Assembly (NCBI RefSeq): GCF_007859315.1
Contig: NZ_VOHA01000001.1
Location: 1,240,001 to 1,304,000, forward strand
Direction of reading: 5' to 3'
From: Reyranella sp. CPCC 100927
GTDB lineage: Bacteria; Pseudomonadota; Alphaproteobacteria; Reyranellales; Reyranellaceae
DNA: 64,000 bases
Below, one piece after another: positions 38,315-46,376 of the stretch (position 1 is its first letter; the number at the start of each line of letters is the position of its first letter). The notes under the pieces are model-generated. The model was not told the origin of the DNA, made no database searches, and saw nothing but the letters and a program-made list of their open reading frames with translations. The position numbers and the translations under genes are program-made.

Positions 38315-38397
38315 GTCATTCCGAGCGCAGCGAGGAATCTTCGGAAAGTAGCGCACTGCGCTTGCCCCAAAAGATCCCTCGCTGCGCTCGGGATGAC
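38315..38397. repeat. Palindromic intergenic repeat, family B (hybrid arms)
   Basis: The left arm is of the gtcattccgagcgcagcgaggaatctt type and the right arm of the aagatccctcgctgcgctcgggatgac type. The two arms differ at the t/c position that would pair, so it is a mosaic of two sub-types. It separates two convergent genes. Confidence 0.85.
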
Positions 38398-41582: not shown

Positions 41583-42581
41583 CTACCGCCCGTAGCGGCG
41601 TTCAAGGGTTCCGAGCGCCAGGTCGTGCGCACGCTGCAGGTCGTCGAGGGCGACGCTGTAATCACCAAACTTCTTGCGGCTCACTGCCCGCGCAAGCTGG
41701 AACTGCAGCGCTTTGGTCCCTTCGGCGATCTGCAGGCAGGCAGCGATCGCCTCATCCAGGCCGGCTTCGCCATGCCCGGCGAGCCACTGCAGGTGACTGC
41801 CCAGCATTTCGAAATTGGCGCCGAGCTGGCGCATGATGTTGAAGGCGTAGAGGTGGAAGTAGTCCATCGGCCGCGACGCCAGCATCTCGAGATGACGCGG
41901 AAACTCGGCCCGGAACCGCGTGAAGACGCCGGCCGGCCGCCGCGCGAGGTGGTCCTTCATCAGCGCCAGCGCGCCCTCGACCAGGGCGCGGCCTTCCAGC
42001 ACTTGGCCGTCGCGCTTGACGAACTCGACATAGGGAAACAGCACGTCGGGCTGCCCCTGCTGCGCCGGCAGGCGTCGGAAGAGGCCGTCGAAATCCTCGC
42101 CCTCGACAAGATGATAGCTGGTGTTGTGGAAATAGTTCATGCGCCGAGCGGCGATATCGAGCGCGCCGATGCCGATCGTCGATTTCACATGGGCCTGCTT
42201 ATAGGCCGTGCCACGGGTGTCGGGCAGGTAGTAGCTGTCGACCTCGACCAGCGGCATGCGGCCACGCCGGATCTGCTCGACCGAATGGCCTTCGACCGTG
42301 TCGAAGATCGCAAGCTCCTGCACCTGAAGGCCGAACAGGGCGCGCAGGTCCTCGGGCGGGAACTTGAAGAAGGTGAAATGGTCGCCTTCGAAATCCTGCT
42401 CCACCGTGAAGGACAGCGCCGCCAGCGGCTCCAGGCCGAAGGCATGCAACACCTCGACCCAGACATCGATGTAGCAATTGGTCTCGAGCCAGATCCGATC
42501 GGGCGCGTGCAGCGCGTGCGCGCGGTAGTCGGCCGGATCGACCGGCAGCAATCGCGCGCCGGCGCCGTTTGCGTCGTCCAT
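41583..42581 (-). CDS. DUF1839 family protein, partner of amino acid:carrier-protein ligase
   Basis: 332 residues of a soluble protein without known fold. Recognisable phrases are WLETNCYIDVWVEVLHAFGLEP, FTFFKFPPEDLRALFGL, VEVDSYYLPDTRGTAYK and HVKSTIGI. DUF1839 proteins are mainly known as neighbours of stand-alone amino acid:carrier-protein ligases, which is how the gene is found here, one base after the ligase stop. The conserved Cys, Asp, His and Tyr residues could be catalytic, for example as an acyltransferase that takes the aminoacyl group from the carrier protein. That is a guess from context. Confidence 0.8.
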   Translation of the reverse strand: MDDANGAGARLLPVDPADYRAHALHAPDRIWLETNCYIDVWVEVLHAFGLEPLAALSFTVEQDFEGDHFTFFKFPPEDLRALFGLQVQELAIFDTVEGHSVEQIRRGRMPLVEVDSYYLPDTRGTAYKQAHVKSTIGIGALDIAARRMNYFHNTSYHLVEGEDFDGLFRRLPAQQGQPDVLFPYVEFVKRDGQVLEGRALVEGALALMKDHLARRPAGVFTRFRAEFPRHLEMLASRPMDYFHLYAFNIMRQLGANFEMLGSHLQWLAGHGEAGLDEAIAACLQIAEGTKALQFQLARAVSRKKFGDYSVALDDLQRAHDLALGTLERRYGR

Positions 42582-42582
42582 G

Positions 42583-43512
42583 TCAGCCCCAGAGCTGCTG
42601 GCGCACGGCCTGCGGCCAGGCCTTCACGTCGAAGCCGTGATACTTGAACAGCGCCAGCGCGATGCGCTCCACGCCGAAGCCGACGCAGGCGGTGTGGGCC
42701 GTGCCGCCATCATGGGTGCGGATGTTCCACACATGACCGAAATGGTCCTGGTGGTAGTTGAAGCTGAGGCACGCCGTCGGCTTCTCGGTGCTGGTGATCG
42801 GGATCAGCAGCTCGAACTTCAAGGTCTGGTCGCGCTGGTTGACCGCCAGCATCCTGCCGGCGCGGCCGAAGAAGGGGTCGTTGGCGACGTCGACGGTCAG
42901 CGGCACATCGAGCGCCGACATGATCGCCTGGCCGCGGTCGATCCAGAGCTGGCGGAACGCCATCACCTGCTCAGGCGTGCCGACGCGCACATACTCGCGC
43001 TGGCGGAAGAGCTGCATGCGCGCCGGATCGATCGATGGTTCGTGGCGGAAGCAATAGGAATAGACGTCGCTCAGCGCGCCGTTGGCCGGCAGATGGCCGC
43101 GTGCTGCCAGTACCGGATAGAGCGGGTAGCAGGCCGCCGGTGTCATCACCACTTGCGTGGCCTTCTGGCCCGGCGTCCAGTCCTCCTTCTTCAGCAGCTT
43201 CTCAATCAGCGCCGCGTGGTCGCGATCATTGCCCATGAAGCTGTGAATGGTGCCGGCGAGCTGCGGGAAGCTCTTGAGGTAGTCGCTCTCCTCGAAATGC
43301 TGCCGGTTGATGGCGGGCGGAAAACGCATGATCTCGGCGCCGTCGTTGCCGCCGTGGCGGGTGACCAGGTCGTTGAAACGCTCGATCACGTCCTCGAAGA
43401 CGCCGCTGCGACCGTATAGGCCGTCGACCCCCATCGGGATCAGCAGGCCGTGCGCGATCAGGTCGTCACGGAAGGCGGCCTGCGCCGCCTGCAGGGAAGC
43501 GTCGGCACTCAT
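42583..43512 (-). CDS. Amino acid:[carrier protein] ligase (seryl-tRNA synthetase-like)
   Basis: A 309-residue class II synthetase core without the tRNA-binding arm. Motif 2 is [24 protein letters not shown] and motif 3 is [12 protein letters not shown] (278-289). Zinc ligands expected from archaeal-type SerRS and the characterised Bradyrhizobium enzymes fit Cys128, Glu173 and Cys276. Those relatives activate Gly or Ala with ATP and load it onto the phosphopantetheine of a small carrier protein instead of a tRNA. A carrier protein gene is in the same operon. Its start overlaps the stop of the dehydrogenase gene (ATGA). Confidence 0.92.
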
Positions 43513-44669
43513 GAGAACAGCCCCGGGTCGTCCTTCAGTACCAGAAGCAGGTTTGCCGTGTTGGCGAGGATGCGATCGTTGCTGACCATCAGCGCCGCCG
43601 AATGGGCATCACGCAGGTGACGGCCGACGCTGAAGTCGGAGTCGTTGCGGTAGCCCGAGATGCCGCAGATCAGCAGGGCATGGTTCACGACCTGCACCGC
43701 CATCTGCGATGTCCCGGTCTTCAGGTTGTTCATCGCCACGGCAAACGACAGCGCTGTGAGCTGCTCTGCCGAACCCAGGGCCTGCTCGTACAACTTGGCT
43801 GCCGCGACGACATTCGACTTCATGAGCTGCAGCAGGTTCACCGCTTCGGCCAACCGCAGGGCACCGGGCGGCAGGCTGCCGGCCTTCTTGCGCGCTTCGG
43901 CGCGCACGAACGTACGGGCGCGCGCGACAGCGTCGGTGGCGATGCCCAGCCACAGGCTGCTCCAGGTCAGATGCGACGTCGGCAGCATGGTCTGGGCCGA
44001 GATGTCGGCATAGGGCAGGGGCAGGATCTGCGCCACATCCCCGGTCGCGTGCAGCCAGTAACCGTTGCTGCAGGTGCCGCGCATGCCCAGGGTATCCCAG
44101 GTCGACGTCTGCTCCAGTCGATAGTCGCCTTTCAGCACGGCGACGATCACCTGATCCGAAGCCGGCGAGTCGGGCGTGCGGCGGGCCGTAACCAGGATGC
44201 CGTCGGCATCGGCGCCATAGGAGATCACCGTGGCGTTCTTGCTGAGCTTCAGGCGGGCGCCGTCGACCTCGACGGCGCAGACGCTGCTGCGCACGTCGCC
44301 GCCGACCCCGGCTTCCGACGTCGCCGACGCCAGCAGCAGCTGCTCGCCCGCCAGGCGTTGCAGCAGAGTGCGATGCCAGGCGCTTTCCTGGCCATGGCGC
44401 ACGATGCATGCCACCTGGATCTGGTGCATGGCGTAGATCATCGCCGTCGATGCGCAATACTGACCCATCGCATGGCACAGCGAGAGAATTTCGGAGATCG
44501 AGGCGCCGGGGCCGCCGAAGGCGGTCGGCACCATGACGCCGAGCAGCTTCTCTGCCTTGAGGGCGGCGAACGACTCGCGGGGGAAGCGCGCCTGGCTGTC
44601 AACAGCGCCGGCGTGCCGCGCAGCGACCTCGGCACCAACCCGCCGCGCCCGCTGCAGCAGATCGCTCAT
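43509..44669 (-). CDS. Acyl-CoA dehydrogenase-like flavoprotein of the carrier-protein operon
   Basis: 386 residues of the ACAD fold: N-terminal helices, [16 protein letters not shown] before the beta domain (the FAD-stacking segment), [17 protein letters not shown], and a C-terminal helical domain. At the C-terminal site, where acyl-CoA dehydrogenases have the base Glu in a Y-E-G-T context after RDA, this protein reads [16 protein letters not shown], without that Glu. It may use a different base or be a flavin monooxygenase-like member. It overlaps the carrier-protein gene upstream and the ligase gene downstream by four bases each. The aminoacyl carrier protein is its likely substrate. Confidence 0.85.
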
Positions 44670-44926
44670 GCGGCGACTTTTTCGTCCAGCAGTTCGGTAA
44701 TGGCAGCCTGGATGGCGGCGACGCTTTCGAACGTGCGCCGCCGCAGCAGCCGGTCCGGAAATTCGATATCGAACTTTTCCTCCAGGCCCAGCATCAGGTT
44801 GACGGTGGCATGGGAGGTAAGGCCGGCAGCGTAGAGATCATCCGTATCGCCCAGCGTGGCGATGTCGACAGGCAAAGCGCCACCCTCGCGAATGACCTCG
44901 CGAATCTTGTCGGTTACAGTTGTCAC
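44666..44926 (-). CDS. Acyl carrier protein of the amino acid:carrier-protein operon
   Basis: 86 residues. DLYAAGLTSHATVNLML carries the phosphopantetheine Ser38 in the DxxxxGLTSH context. DLYAAGL and FDIEFPDRLLRRRTFESVAAI are the usual ACP helices 2-3. GTG 44926 is the likely start, following gggggtattagcc; a longer frame reaches 45025 but the added residues are hydrophobic and unlike any ACP. It is the first gene of a four-gene operon. A tatatt box about 25 bases upstream on the minus strand may be its -10 element. Confidence 0.88.
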   Translation of the reverse strand: MTTVTDKIREVIREGGALPVDIATLGDTDDLYAAGLTSHATVNLMLGLEEKFDIEFPDRLLRRRTFESVAAIQAAITELLDEKVAA

Positions 44927-45210
44927 GGCTAATACCCCCGAAATATACAATACCGACGTCGTGCTAACTAACTGAAACCAAGCATTGTTTCCCAAATTTT
45001 GTTGCGCTGCAAGATGATATTGCACAACACTGCGGAAAATATGCCAGAGGGCTTCCCCGAGCCCGAGCGATCATACCACGGCAGTGCCTGTTCTGGCACG
45101 CGCTATCGGCGTTTCGCGCACCGGCCGCTCGCCGATATTGATGATCCCGCCCCCGCTGGCACCCGTGCGATCATCTATCGAACGCTCGATCGATGGAACG
45201 GGAGGTTGTG

Positions 45211-46284
45211 ATGCGTGCGGCGATCCTCAGGCACGGCGATCTTGTCGTCGACACGGTACCCGATCCAGTGCCGGGTCCCGGGCAGGTGCTGGTGAAGTCG
45301 CTGGTGTGCGGGATCTGCGGCTCGGATTTGCATGCCCACAAGCATGGTCCCCGCATGGTCGACGTCTCGCGGCGGATCGGTGGCCGCCCGCCGATGGATC
45401 TCAGCCGGGATATCGTTTTCGGTCACGAGTTCTGTGCCGAGCTGCTCGACCATGGGCCGGGTACCACCCGCAAGCTGAAGCCAGGCACGCGTGTCTGTTC
45501 CATGCCGATCGTCATGACCGCCGAGGGGCCGCGGACCGTGGGCTACTCGAACGAGTTTCCCGGCGGCTTTGCCGAGCGCATGGTGCTGAACGAGGCGCTG
45601 CTGATCGAAGTACCCAACGGCCTGTCGGCCGAGCATGCGGCGCTGACCGAGCCGTTGGCTGTCGGCATCCATGCCGTCGAGAAAGCGGCTGCCCGGGGTG
45701 ATGAGGTGCCCCTGGTGATCGGCTGCGGCCCGGTGGGCTTGGCCGTGATCGCGGCGCTCAAGCTCAAGAACCTGCGGCCGATCATCGCCGCCGACTTTTC
45801 ACCAGCGCGACGCAAGCTGGCCGAGCGGCTGGGCGCCGACATCGTGGTCGATCCCGCGGCAACATCGCCTTACCAGGCCTGGATGGAAAAGGCGGCGATC
45901 GATGGCGTTGTGCCGGCCGCGGTGTGGAGCGCGACGCCGCCCTACAAGCCGGCCCTGATCTTCGAGTGCGTCGGCGTGCCGGGCGTCCTGCAGCAGGTGT
46001 TCGAGGGTGTGCCGCGCGGGGCCCGCATCGTGGTCGTCGGCGTCTGCATGGAGATCGACAAGATCGAGCCGATGTTCTGCATCAGCAAGGAGCTGAACGT
46101 TCAGTTCGTGCTGGGCTACACGCCCGAGGAGTTCGCGCGCGCCCTGCGCCTGATCGCCGAGGGTCAGGTCGAAGCCCAGGCGCTGATCACCGGCAAGGTC
46201 GGCGTCGACGGCGTCAAGGACGCCTTCGAGCAGCTCGGCAATCCCGAACGGCATACCAAGATCCTGGTCGAACCCTGGCGCTGA
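45211..46284 (+). CDS. Zinc-binding medium-chain alcohol dehydrogenase family protein
   Basis: A 357-residue MDR protein. The catalytic zinc ligands appear to be Cys36 (VCGICGSDLH), His72 and Glu73 (GHEFCAEL), with Glu147 (TEPLAVGIH). The NAD site is VIGCGPVGLAVIAALK, followed by IIAADFSPARR. The structural zinc lobe, normally four Cys around residues 90-115, is missing; only Cys96 is there. The substrate is likely a polyol, threonine or an aromatic alcohol, undetermined. ATG 45211 is preferred since ggaggttgtg precedes it. A family B repeat follows. Confidence 0.85.
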   Translation: MRAAILRHGDLVVDTVPDPVPGPGQVLVKSLVCGICGSDLHAHKHGPRMVDVSRRIGGRPPMDLSRDIVFGHEFCAELLDHGPGTTRKLKPGTRVCSMPIVMTAEGPRTVGYSNEFPGGFAERMVLNEALLIEVPNGLSAEHAALTEPLAVGIHAVEKAAARGDEVPLVIGCGPVGLAVIAALKLKNLRPIIAADFSPARRKLAERLGADIVVDPAATSPYQAWMEKAAIDGVVPAAVWSATPPYKPALIFECVGVPGVLQQVFEGVPRGARIVVVGVCMEIDKIEPMFCISKELNVQFVLGYTPEEFARALRLIAEGQVEAQALITGKVGVDGVKDAFEQLGNPERHTKILVEPWR

Positions 46285-46290
46285 GGGTTT

Positions 46291-46376
46291 GTCATCCCGA
46301 GCGCAGCGAGGGATCTTTTGATGCAGGCGCACCCGTGCGTCTCTTCCAGAAGATCCCTCGCTGCGCTCGGGATGAC
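46291..46376. repeat. Palindromic intergenic repeat, family B
   Basis: An 86-base doublet with centre gatgcaggcgcacccgtgcgtctcttcc, almost the same as the copies at 6306 and 22290. It starts 6 bases after the dehydrogenase stop and ends before the convergent amidase. Confidence 0.85.

Follow-up and report, generated by a model that had tools for sequence, protein, structure and literature searches.

A conserved gene quartet of Reyranella sp. CPCC 100927 and its predicted role in tRNA-independent aminoacyl transfer

What use does a bacterium have for an enzyme with the catalytic core of a seryl-tRNA synthetase (SerRS) and no arm to bind a tRNA? The question is raised by a locus of Reyranella sp. 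CPCC 100927 (contig NZ_VOHA01000001.1), in which such a ligase is encoded together with a small carrier protein, a flavoprotein of the acyl-CoA dehydrogenase fold and a protein of the Pfam family DUF1839. The four genes are head-to-tail open reading frames on the minus strand, at positions 41583-44926 of the 64,000-nucleotide stretch that was analysed (the window). We propose, with a probability of roughly 45%, that this quartet is most of a six-protein aminoacyl-transfer system, independent of tRNA and of nonribosomal peptide synthetases (NRPSs), in which an aminoacyl group would be oxidised on the carrier protein and passed by DUF1839 to an amine. By analogy with its studied relatives, the ligase would make an aminoacyl-AMP from a small amino acid (glycine or alanine in those relatives) and load it onto the phosphopantetheine of the carrier. 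The flavoprotein would then oxidise the carrier-bound aminoacyl group, more likely by oxygenation and perhaps at the amino nitrogen, and DUF1839 would take the acyl group on its Cys36 and transfer it to an amine, much as BtrH moves an acyl group from its acyl carrier protein to an aminoglycoside. Two further proteins encoded elsewhere in the genome, a beta-mannosidase-like member of glycoside hydrolase family 2 (GH2) and a double alpha/beta hydrolase (ABH), might process the sugar side or clear misloaded carrier.

Constancy of the quartet

The quartet is very constant, far beyond what chance would give, because all complete loci share strand and order. A scan of the genome collection with a DUF1839 alignment gave at least 576 confirmed relatives, and the best-scoring 80 loci, which lean towards the window's own type, were compared (gene frames in the scripts came from a simple open-frame search, and their starts may be too long). 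All four genes are present in 75 of these 80, on one strand and in the same order in 75 of 75; flavoprotein and ligase are found in 79 loci and the carrier protein in 75. Three of the five incomplete loci (L050, L065, and L103) are cut by contig edges, the others being L107 and L109. The flavoprotein is split into two pieces in L040, and a second small flavoprotein piece follows in L074.

Even draws of 385 genomes from the class and 398 from the phylum, both of which include the present genome (G000) and G305, give the same picture. DUF1839 occurs in 5 of the 385 class-sample genomes, with the ligase adjacent in 5 of 5, and in 16 of the 398 phylum-sample genomes (18 copies), where a ligase lies 32-125 bases from one DUF1839 match in 16 of 16. 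A preliminary description, made from the sequence alone, had made its reading depend on DUF1839 not lying mostly away from such ligases, and the contrary is rejected, as 16 of the 18 copies in the phylum sample adjoin one. The converse relationship is weaker, since 5 of the 10 class-sample genomes with a ligase over the cut-off have no DUF1839; three of these five, in which a flavoprotein gene adjoins the ligase, form a branch of Bradyrhizobium type, and the other two form a branch with an ABH gene adjoining or near it.

Second DUF1839 copies that have no adjacent ligase were seen in Burkholderiaceae (L107:4730-5884, L164:88-1299, and L165:13232-14452); a double alpha/beta hydrolase gene lies near them, and L164 and L165 have in addition a Wzc-like gene nearby.

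Predicted loading, oxidation and transfer

SerRS-derived carrier-protein ligases were reportedly assayed and solved by 2010-2013. The ligase of the window scores 513 bits against the equivalog model PRK07080 (cut-off 357) and its match to the 518-position SerRS models is confined to positions 300-504, that is, the catalytic core without the tRNA-binding arm. Compared with the PDB, it matches 4h2w at E = 3e-95 and 3mey (Bll0957) at E = 1e-92. The carrier protein scores 110 bits against PRK07081 (cut-off 72), and its closest solved relatives are chain C of 4h2w and Agrobacterium tumefaciens Atu2571 (2jq4), at E = 4e-22 and 5e-22; the best solved relatives of the two proteins are chains of this one entry, 4h2w, which contains ligase 1 and an aminoacyl carrier protein. 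Ligase residues Cys128, Glu173, and Cys276 are invariant in ten ligases and kept in at least 95% of 80, and by equivalence with the Bll0957 structure we take them to be the Cys/Glu/Cys zinc ligands. Ser38 of the carrier protein is kept in at least 95% of 76 carrier proteins. With scores over curated cut-offs and matches to solved proteins, the assignment of both gene products to characterised families, already made in the preliminary description, is supported. That homologous ligases load their carrier protein is established (PMC9437257), and a 2022 review gives the biological role of the SerRS-derived ligases as still unknown, in keeping with the earlier statement that no end product is known.

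The same description had cited ligases of Bradyrhizobium that load glycine or alanine as the precedent for this locus. The ligase and carrier protein are homologous over nearly their full length to Bradyrhizobium ligase 1 (Bll0957; 3mey, 4h2s) and to Atu2571, respectively. On the other hand, the genome G382, whose near-identical ligase scores 679 bits to Bll0957, has no DUF1839, GH2, or ABH gene in 17 kb and no DUF1839 genome-wide; a flavoprotein and a weakly matching carrier protein (28 bits, opposite strand) lie beside its ligase, which groups with other ligases lacking DUF1839. Because the Bll0957-type ligase is of another branch, without DUF1839, its glycine specificity does not carry over automatically to the enzyme described here.

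Two loci with ligase and flavoprotein but no DUF1839 lie near O-acetylhomoserine sulfhydrylase and MetA-like genes, which are immediate neighbours in L128:5697-10189 and some 4.5 kb away on the opposite strand in L127:7828-15613; these contexts hint at a sulfur-amino-acid branch of the same chemistry. Plasmid records of Streptomyces (22), Apilactobacillus (6), and Priestia (3) hold ligase relatives as well; none of these genera is among those with a DUF1839 match on plasmids.

The flavoprotein matches Acyl-CoA_dh_N and Acyl-CoA_dh_1 above the Pfam cut-offs and Acyl-CoA_dh_M below its own, and Cys72, His82, His233, and an Asn364-Asp365-Arg366 motif are kept in at least 95% of 79 sequences. Its positions 362 and 232 were mapped by hand via a conserved R-D motif and the G-helix, and presumably correspond to the glutamate positions of medium-chain acyl-CoA dehydrogenase and isovaleryl-CoA dehydrogenase, respectively. 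In the 79 aligned flavoproteins, position 362 is isoleucine or valine (one gap) and position 232 is serine, threonine, alanine, or cysteine, with glutamate at neither; the flavoproteins of three operons that lack DUF1839 have the same glutamate-less pattern and the N-D-R motif. When the flavoprotein profile was compared with the PDB, DnmZ ranked 4th (75.7 bits) and a nitrososynthase 7th (67.1 bits) of 36 solved relatives, followed at ranks 8 and 9 by the chains of 3m9v and 4kcf (about 66 bits), all four of which we take to be amino-sugar N-oxygenases.

Oxidation of a carrier-bound prolyl thioester is described as requiring the catalytic glutamate, whereas ChmG, which has methionine in its place and resembles the amino-sugar N-oxygenase KijD3, is needed to N-oxygenate carrier-bound proline (PMC10849742). 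Since the catalytic glutamate is missing and the nearest relatives include N-oxygenases, a carrier-bound oxygenation is favoured over a classical alpha,beta-dehydrogenation as the predicted activity of the flavoprotein. ChmG, KijD3, and DnmZ are like it in having the acyl-CoA dehydrogenase fold without the catalytic glutamate, and ChmG in addition acts on a carrier-bound prolyl thioester (PMC10849742); the likeness to DnmZ, the nitrososynthase and 3m9v/4kcf is at the profile level only (66-76 bits), and the substrate would in our case be a small amino acid. The preliminary description had drawn the analogy to prolyl-carrier-protein oxidation in pyrrole formation, and this analogy is not supported: a prolyl-type dehydrogenation by a classical base was rejected, since none of the 79 sequences has, at either hand-mapped position, the glutamate that is described as required (PMC10849742) and the flavoprotein reaches 30.4 bits against the model of the prolyl-peptidyl carrier protein (PCP) dehydrogenase RedW (cut-off 650).

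DUF1839 scores 420 bits against PF08893 (cut-off 22.5). In an alignment of 81 sequences, Cys36, Ser/Thr134, and His152 are kept without exception and His131 in 80. Its assignment to the papain-like cysteine proteins rests on a published classification, in which the family is placed among those with a C(T/S)H triad; the same superfamily holds BtrH_N, part of an acyl carrier protein:aminoglycoside acyltransferase (PMC10318531). A role in transferring or releasing the carrier-bound product, as proposed earlier, fits this class. A sequence search of solved structures with DUF1839 gave no relative at E up to 10, a BtrH_N search in 61 near relatives gave one partial match, and Peptidase_C39_2, with six matches only, had too few for a profile.

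A closer kinship to BtrH was examined with hhalign, using 13 BtrH_N domains, 13 transglutaminase cores, and column-shuffled decoys. The local comparison of DUF1839 with BtrH_N scored 28.4, above 200 of 200 decoys (mean 14.0, maximum 23.6), and the controls scored 17.2 (transglutaminase core, with 8 of 120 decoys as high), 16.1 (ligase), and 16.6 (flavoprotein). Two results count against the kinship, and with it against transfer in the manner of BtrH. The local match reaches a probability of only 16-20%, and its confident part covers DUF1839 residues 54-122, with the catalytic residues outside; and in the global comparison BtrH_N (7.5, with 1 of 120 decoys as high) falls below the transglutaminase core (14.5, 0 of 120), whose alignment joins only DUF1839 residues 1-52 to the end of that domain. 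Because local and global comparisons disagree, a special tie of DUF1839 to BtrH is suggestive at best. In an extended, uncertain local alignment His131 lies opposite a conserved histidine of BtrH_N, so that the catalytic histidine may be His131 or His152. Like BtrH of butirosin biosynthesis (PF14399), which transfers an acyl group from a carrier protein, DUF1839 belongs to the papain-like superfamily, with a weak local profile resemblance; unlike it, DUF1839 is a separate Pfam family with its own published C(T/S)H triad (PMC10318531), and the global comparison does not favour BtrH_N.

Partner genes, genomic setting and the likely acceptor

Clustering of the neighbouring genes brought out a large protein encoded directly after DUF1839, which was identified as a beta-mannosidase-like GH2 enzyme. 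By script it adjoins DUF1839 in 72 of the 80 loci. Among those missed by the script, it is adjacent by eye in L108 (after upstream extension of the frame) and lies beside the second DUF1839 copy in L107; L040, L061, and L103 end at this point, L036 and L037 have no local GH2 gene, and L109 has a weak fragment only. In the phylum sample it adjoins DUF1839 in 15 of 16 genomes (14 of 14 fetched quartets, and G305), the sixteenth being the present genome, where it is on another contig. The double alpha/beta hydrolase gene is present in 47 of the 80 loci, sometimes on the far side or on the other strand, and all six genes occur together in 45; both partners were found in 7 of 7 DUF1839 genomes that were searched whole. 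In Reyranella sp. CPCC 100927 the two are neighbours on a contig other than that of the quartet, with GH2 before ABH, and in the related genomes G001 and G003 the pair is likewise on a different contig from DUF1839. These partners, which the preliminary description did not include, point to a glycan or glycoside substrate.

The best matches of the GH2 profile are beta-mannosidases (5n6u, 280 bits), with similarity over the full length. Glu406 and Glu487 are invariant in 14 of 14 sequences and align to the CGNNE and SEFGF motifs of beta-mannosidase, so that we take them to be the catalytic residues. In this glycosidase clan, the asparagine before the first glutamate touches the 2-hydroxyl of the sugar; serine replaces this asparagine of beta-mannosidase in 71 of 74 GH2 partners, which makes a 2-amino or otherwise altered sugar conceivable as the substrate.

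The acceptor amine is probably on a sugar; the most likely acceptors are a surface-glycan amino sugar and a cytoplasmic glycoside precursor. Probes detect an exopolysaccharide gene in 26 of the 29 Burkholderiaceae loci among the best 80. Since only Burkholderiaceae loci match the probes, the case for exopolysaccharide as a general acceptor is kept weak. DUF1839 is also found on 59 plasmid records. According to the NCBI annotation, the six genes follow one another directly on plasmids from Mycetohabitans and from two Azospirillum, and a Phyllobacterium plasmid has the six with the hydrolase on the other strand and a gene for a multidrug-resistance-family transporter of the major facilitator superfamily (MFS) just upstream; plasmids of Shinella, Caballeronia M1242, and Rhizobium leguminosarum carry the first five, with no listing of the hydrolase. 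Exopolysaccharide genes lie about 6 kb upstream of the set on the Shinella plasmid, and single sugar or envelope genes are near some other plasmid copies (a glycosyltransferase 9 with a sulfotransferase; an ArnT-type transferase with a lipoteichoic acid synthase).

Distant ligase homologues, at 124-158 bits and hence below the cut-off of 357, were inspected at five of ten such matches. Three loci from two genomes (L130:6065-8815, L131:7398-10599, and L132:6442-9514; 133-158 bits) adjoin MBOAT genes, as if an enzyme derived from an aminoacyl-tRNA synthetase had replaced DltA in a Dlt-like surface aminoacylation system. In a fourth (L133:2237-13158), the distant ligase is followed by a small carrier protein within a cluster of nonulosonic-acid type, with two NeuB genes and a PseF-like cytidylyltransferase; inspection by eye of the fifth (L134) revealed no MBOAT- or NeuB-type context. 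The system proposed here resembles Dlt D-alanylation, in which an amino acid destined for a surface polymer is first activated and attached to a small carrier (PMC12930378). It differs in its SerRS-like ligase and in the lack of an MBOAT match among the quartet and two scanned neighbours, MBOAT genes being found beside the three distant ligase homologues.

Within the locus itself (Table 1), the carrier-protein and flavoprotein genes share four bases (ATGA), the flavoprotein and ligase genes likewise have four in common, and between the ligase gene and that of DUF1839 there is a gap of a single base. The genes, their coordinates, strand and junctions had been described correctly before, as the open reading frames and family matches bear out. 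Two near relatives support the GTG start of the carrier-protein gene: in both, GTGAC is conserved and the sequence preceding it varies. Downstream of the quartet are genes for a PpiC-type peptidyl-prolyl isomerase and then ArgJ (the latter named by eye), and upstream is a divergent zinc-dehydrogenase gene; L036 (Vineibacter terrae) and L037 (an alphaproteobacterial assembly) have the same three neighbours around the quartet, which suggests that the present genome is probably a Vineibacter. As regards the earlier statement that no NRPS gene is nearby, the scan covered the two adjoining genes, those for the PpiC-type isomerase and the zinc dehydrogenase. A dispersed repeat of about 87 bases occurs at window positions 38315-38397 and 46290-46376, and several copies are also present in the Vineibacter terrae locus.

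Table 1. Positions of the quartet, its presumed key residues and associated features (window coordinates unless a contig is named)
Feature	Position	Strand	Description and basis
Carrier protein	44666..44926	-	86 aa, GTG start, PRK07081 family; NCBIfam score
Acyl-CoA-dehydrogenase-fold flavoprotein	43509..44669	-	386 aa; Pfam matches, residue counts, profile against PDB
Amino acid:[carrier protein] ligase	42583..43512	-	309 aa, SerRS-like core without tRNA-binding arm; PRK07080, PDB matches
DUF1839, proposed aminoacyltransferase	41583..42581	-	332 aa, papain-like cysteine family; PF08893, published class, residue counts
Ser38 codon (TCC) of carrier protein	44813..44815	-	Presumed phosphopantetheine site in G-L-T-S; conservation, with attachment inferred from the family
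Cys36 codon (TGC) of DUF1839	42474..42476	-	Presumed nucleophile; Cys in 81/81 aligned sequences
His152 codon (CAC) of DUF1839	42126..42128	-	Presumed catalytic His (C(T/S)H triad, as published for the family); His in 81/81, residue assigned in this analysis
Divergent upstream region	44927..45192	.	Presumed promoter region, between carrier-protein and zinc-dehydrogenase genes; gene positions
Zinc-dehydrogenase gene	45193-46284	+	Divergent from quartet; gene positions
GH2 partner gene (outside window)	G000:C11:35608-38043	-	Search of this whole genome
ABH partner gene (outside window)	G000:C11:33887-35593	-	Search of this whole genome

The earlier prediction and competing explanations

A system of this kind has been predicted before. 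A note in proof by Aravind, de Souza and Iyer (2010; PMC2922099) describes a neighbourhood of the ligase with an acyl carrier protein, a redox enzyme, an open reading frame of the Atu2574 type, a glycosidase and liposaccharide genes, and predicts amide transfer to the amino group of a cell-surface sugar with a probable monooxygenation of the aminoacyl group. The set described here has the same ligase family, a carrier protein, a redox enzyme, a conserved uncharacterised open reading frame (we infer that Atu2574 is a DUF1839 protein), a glycosidase and the same predicted function; it differs in that the glycosidase (GH2) and the hydrolase are on another contig. The locus is a new example of this known, still predicted kind, in which the last two of the six genes have been relocated. 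What was found here accords with the 2010 prediction (PMC2922099) and sharpens it, without replacing it; the additions are the beta-mannosidase type of the glycosidase, the ABH protein as a sixth part, the glutamate-less flavoprotein, the comparisons of DUF1839 and the genome counts. Searches of open-licence papers for Atu2571-2575 and Bll0957 turned up that note and single list or table entries, and none of the searches made in that literature met with experiments on the pathway.

Several observations weigh against an oxidising aminoacyl-transfer system acting on a glycan. No substrate, product, or phenotype of any member of the set was found in the open-licence literature. DUF1839 does not always keep its partners: L109 is a lone copy, L107 has a lone copy beside another set that is cut off where the fetched sequence ends, and two spare copies in the phylum sample (G646 and G714) have no ligase beside them and have Wzc-like and ABH genes within a few kb. 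The two neighbours scanned in the window, the PpiC-type isomerase and the zinc dehydrogenase, are not glycan genes. The exopolysaccharide probes match 0 of the 51 loci from outside the Burkholderiaceae, where probes derived from that family are less sensitive, and no exopolysaccharide cluster lies within 15 kb of the set on the plasmids of Azospirillum, Phyllobacterium, Mycetohabitans, and one Caballeronia. In one region of a Rhizobium leguminosarum plasmid (L223:14950-30936), a DUF1839 gene has no annotated ligase beside it in a record whose gene table is incomplete; a very large NRPS gene is found some 4 kb away from it, and the same plasmid has the five-gene set elsewhere.

The alternatives concern the oxidation, the product and the last step. 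The flavoprotein could be a dehydrogenase that uses an unusual base such as His82 or His233, both of which are highly conserved (see above), to make an imino- or dehydro-aminoacyl thioester that DUF1839 would then release or transfer; this would be the preliminary reading with another base in place of the glutamate. FadE16 is the NCBIfam model that it matches best (102 bits, cut-off 600), and ranks 1-3, 5, and 6 among its solved relatives are acyl-CoA dehydrogenases, so a dehydrogenase with another base is possible; it is nevertheless doubtful, given that the glutamate described as needed for prolyl-thioester oxidation (PMC10849742) is at neither classical position and that the prolyl-PCP dehydrogenase model is matched so poorly. 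It is also conceivable that the product is not a glycan decoration but a small compound that diffuses, an oxidised derivative of an amino acid that is perhaps glycosylated and unmasked by GH2. The compact six-gene cassettes on the Azospirillum, Mycetohabitans, and Phyllobacterium plasmids, with no exopolysaccharide cluster within 15 kb, and the transporter gene just upstream of the set in Phyllobacterium would suit such a product, which we nonetheless regard as unlikely in view of the exopolysaccharide genes in most Burkholderiaceae loci, of the MBOAT or NeuB genes at four of the five inspected distant ligase loci, and of the lack of a recurrent transporter among the listed neighbour clusters, which were scanned by eye and mostly carry no annotation.

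For the last step, DUF1839 might not be a transferase at all and might release the oxidised amino acid by hydrolysis, as a thioesterase or an amidase. Many papain-like enzymes are hydrolases (PMC10318531), an extra DUF1839 copy lies away from the ligase in 2 of the 16 phylum-sample genomes, and the test of kinship with BtrH_N was mixed; yet a hydrolase is often already at hand, as all six genes, including that for the alpha/beta hydrolase, occur together in 45 of 80 loci, and BtrH, which acylates an aminoglycoside from an acyl carrier protein, is a member of the same published class (PMC10318531), so that we consider a purely hydrolytic role quite unlikely. The idea that the four genes are unrelated neighbours, to which the unlinked GH2 and ABH genes of this genome might lend some colour, was rejected on the neighbourhood counts and has next to no probability, the complete loci with their uniform order and strand coming from Alphaproteobacteria, Burkholderiaceae, and plasmids alike.

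Within the proposed system of oxidation on the carrier and transfer to an amine, a more specific product can be imagined. A carrier charged with glycine or alanine might be N-oxygenated to an N-hydroxy-, oximino-, or nitroso-acyl form, which the papain-fold enzyme would transfer in amide linkage to an amino sugar while GH2 trims a beta-mannosidic neighbour. Such a decoration of a glycan would be new, as we know of no surface glycan that carries an N-oxygenated aminoacyl group, and in this detail the scheme is improbable and offered as a speculation.

The constant partners of the SerRS-derived ligases narrow their role to a predicted chemistry, in which the aminoacyl group would be oxidised on its carrier and then transferred by a papain-fold enzyme to an amine, probably that of a sugar. 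Should the flavoenzyme prove to be an oxygenase, it would join the small group of oxygenases that act on aminoacyl groups held by carrier proteins. As the set is carried by rhizobia, Azospirillum, Paraburkholderia and their relatives, and DUF1839 by 59 plasmid records, it is plausible that the product serves plant-associated bacteria at the cell surface or in signalling.

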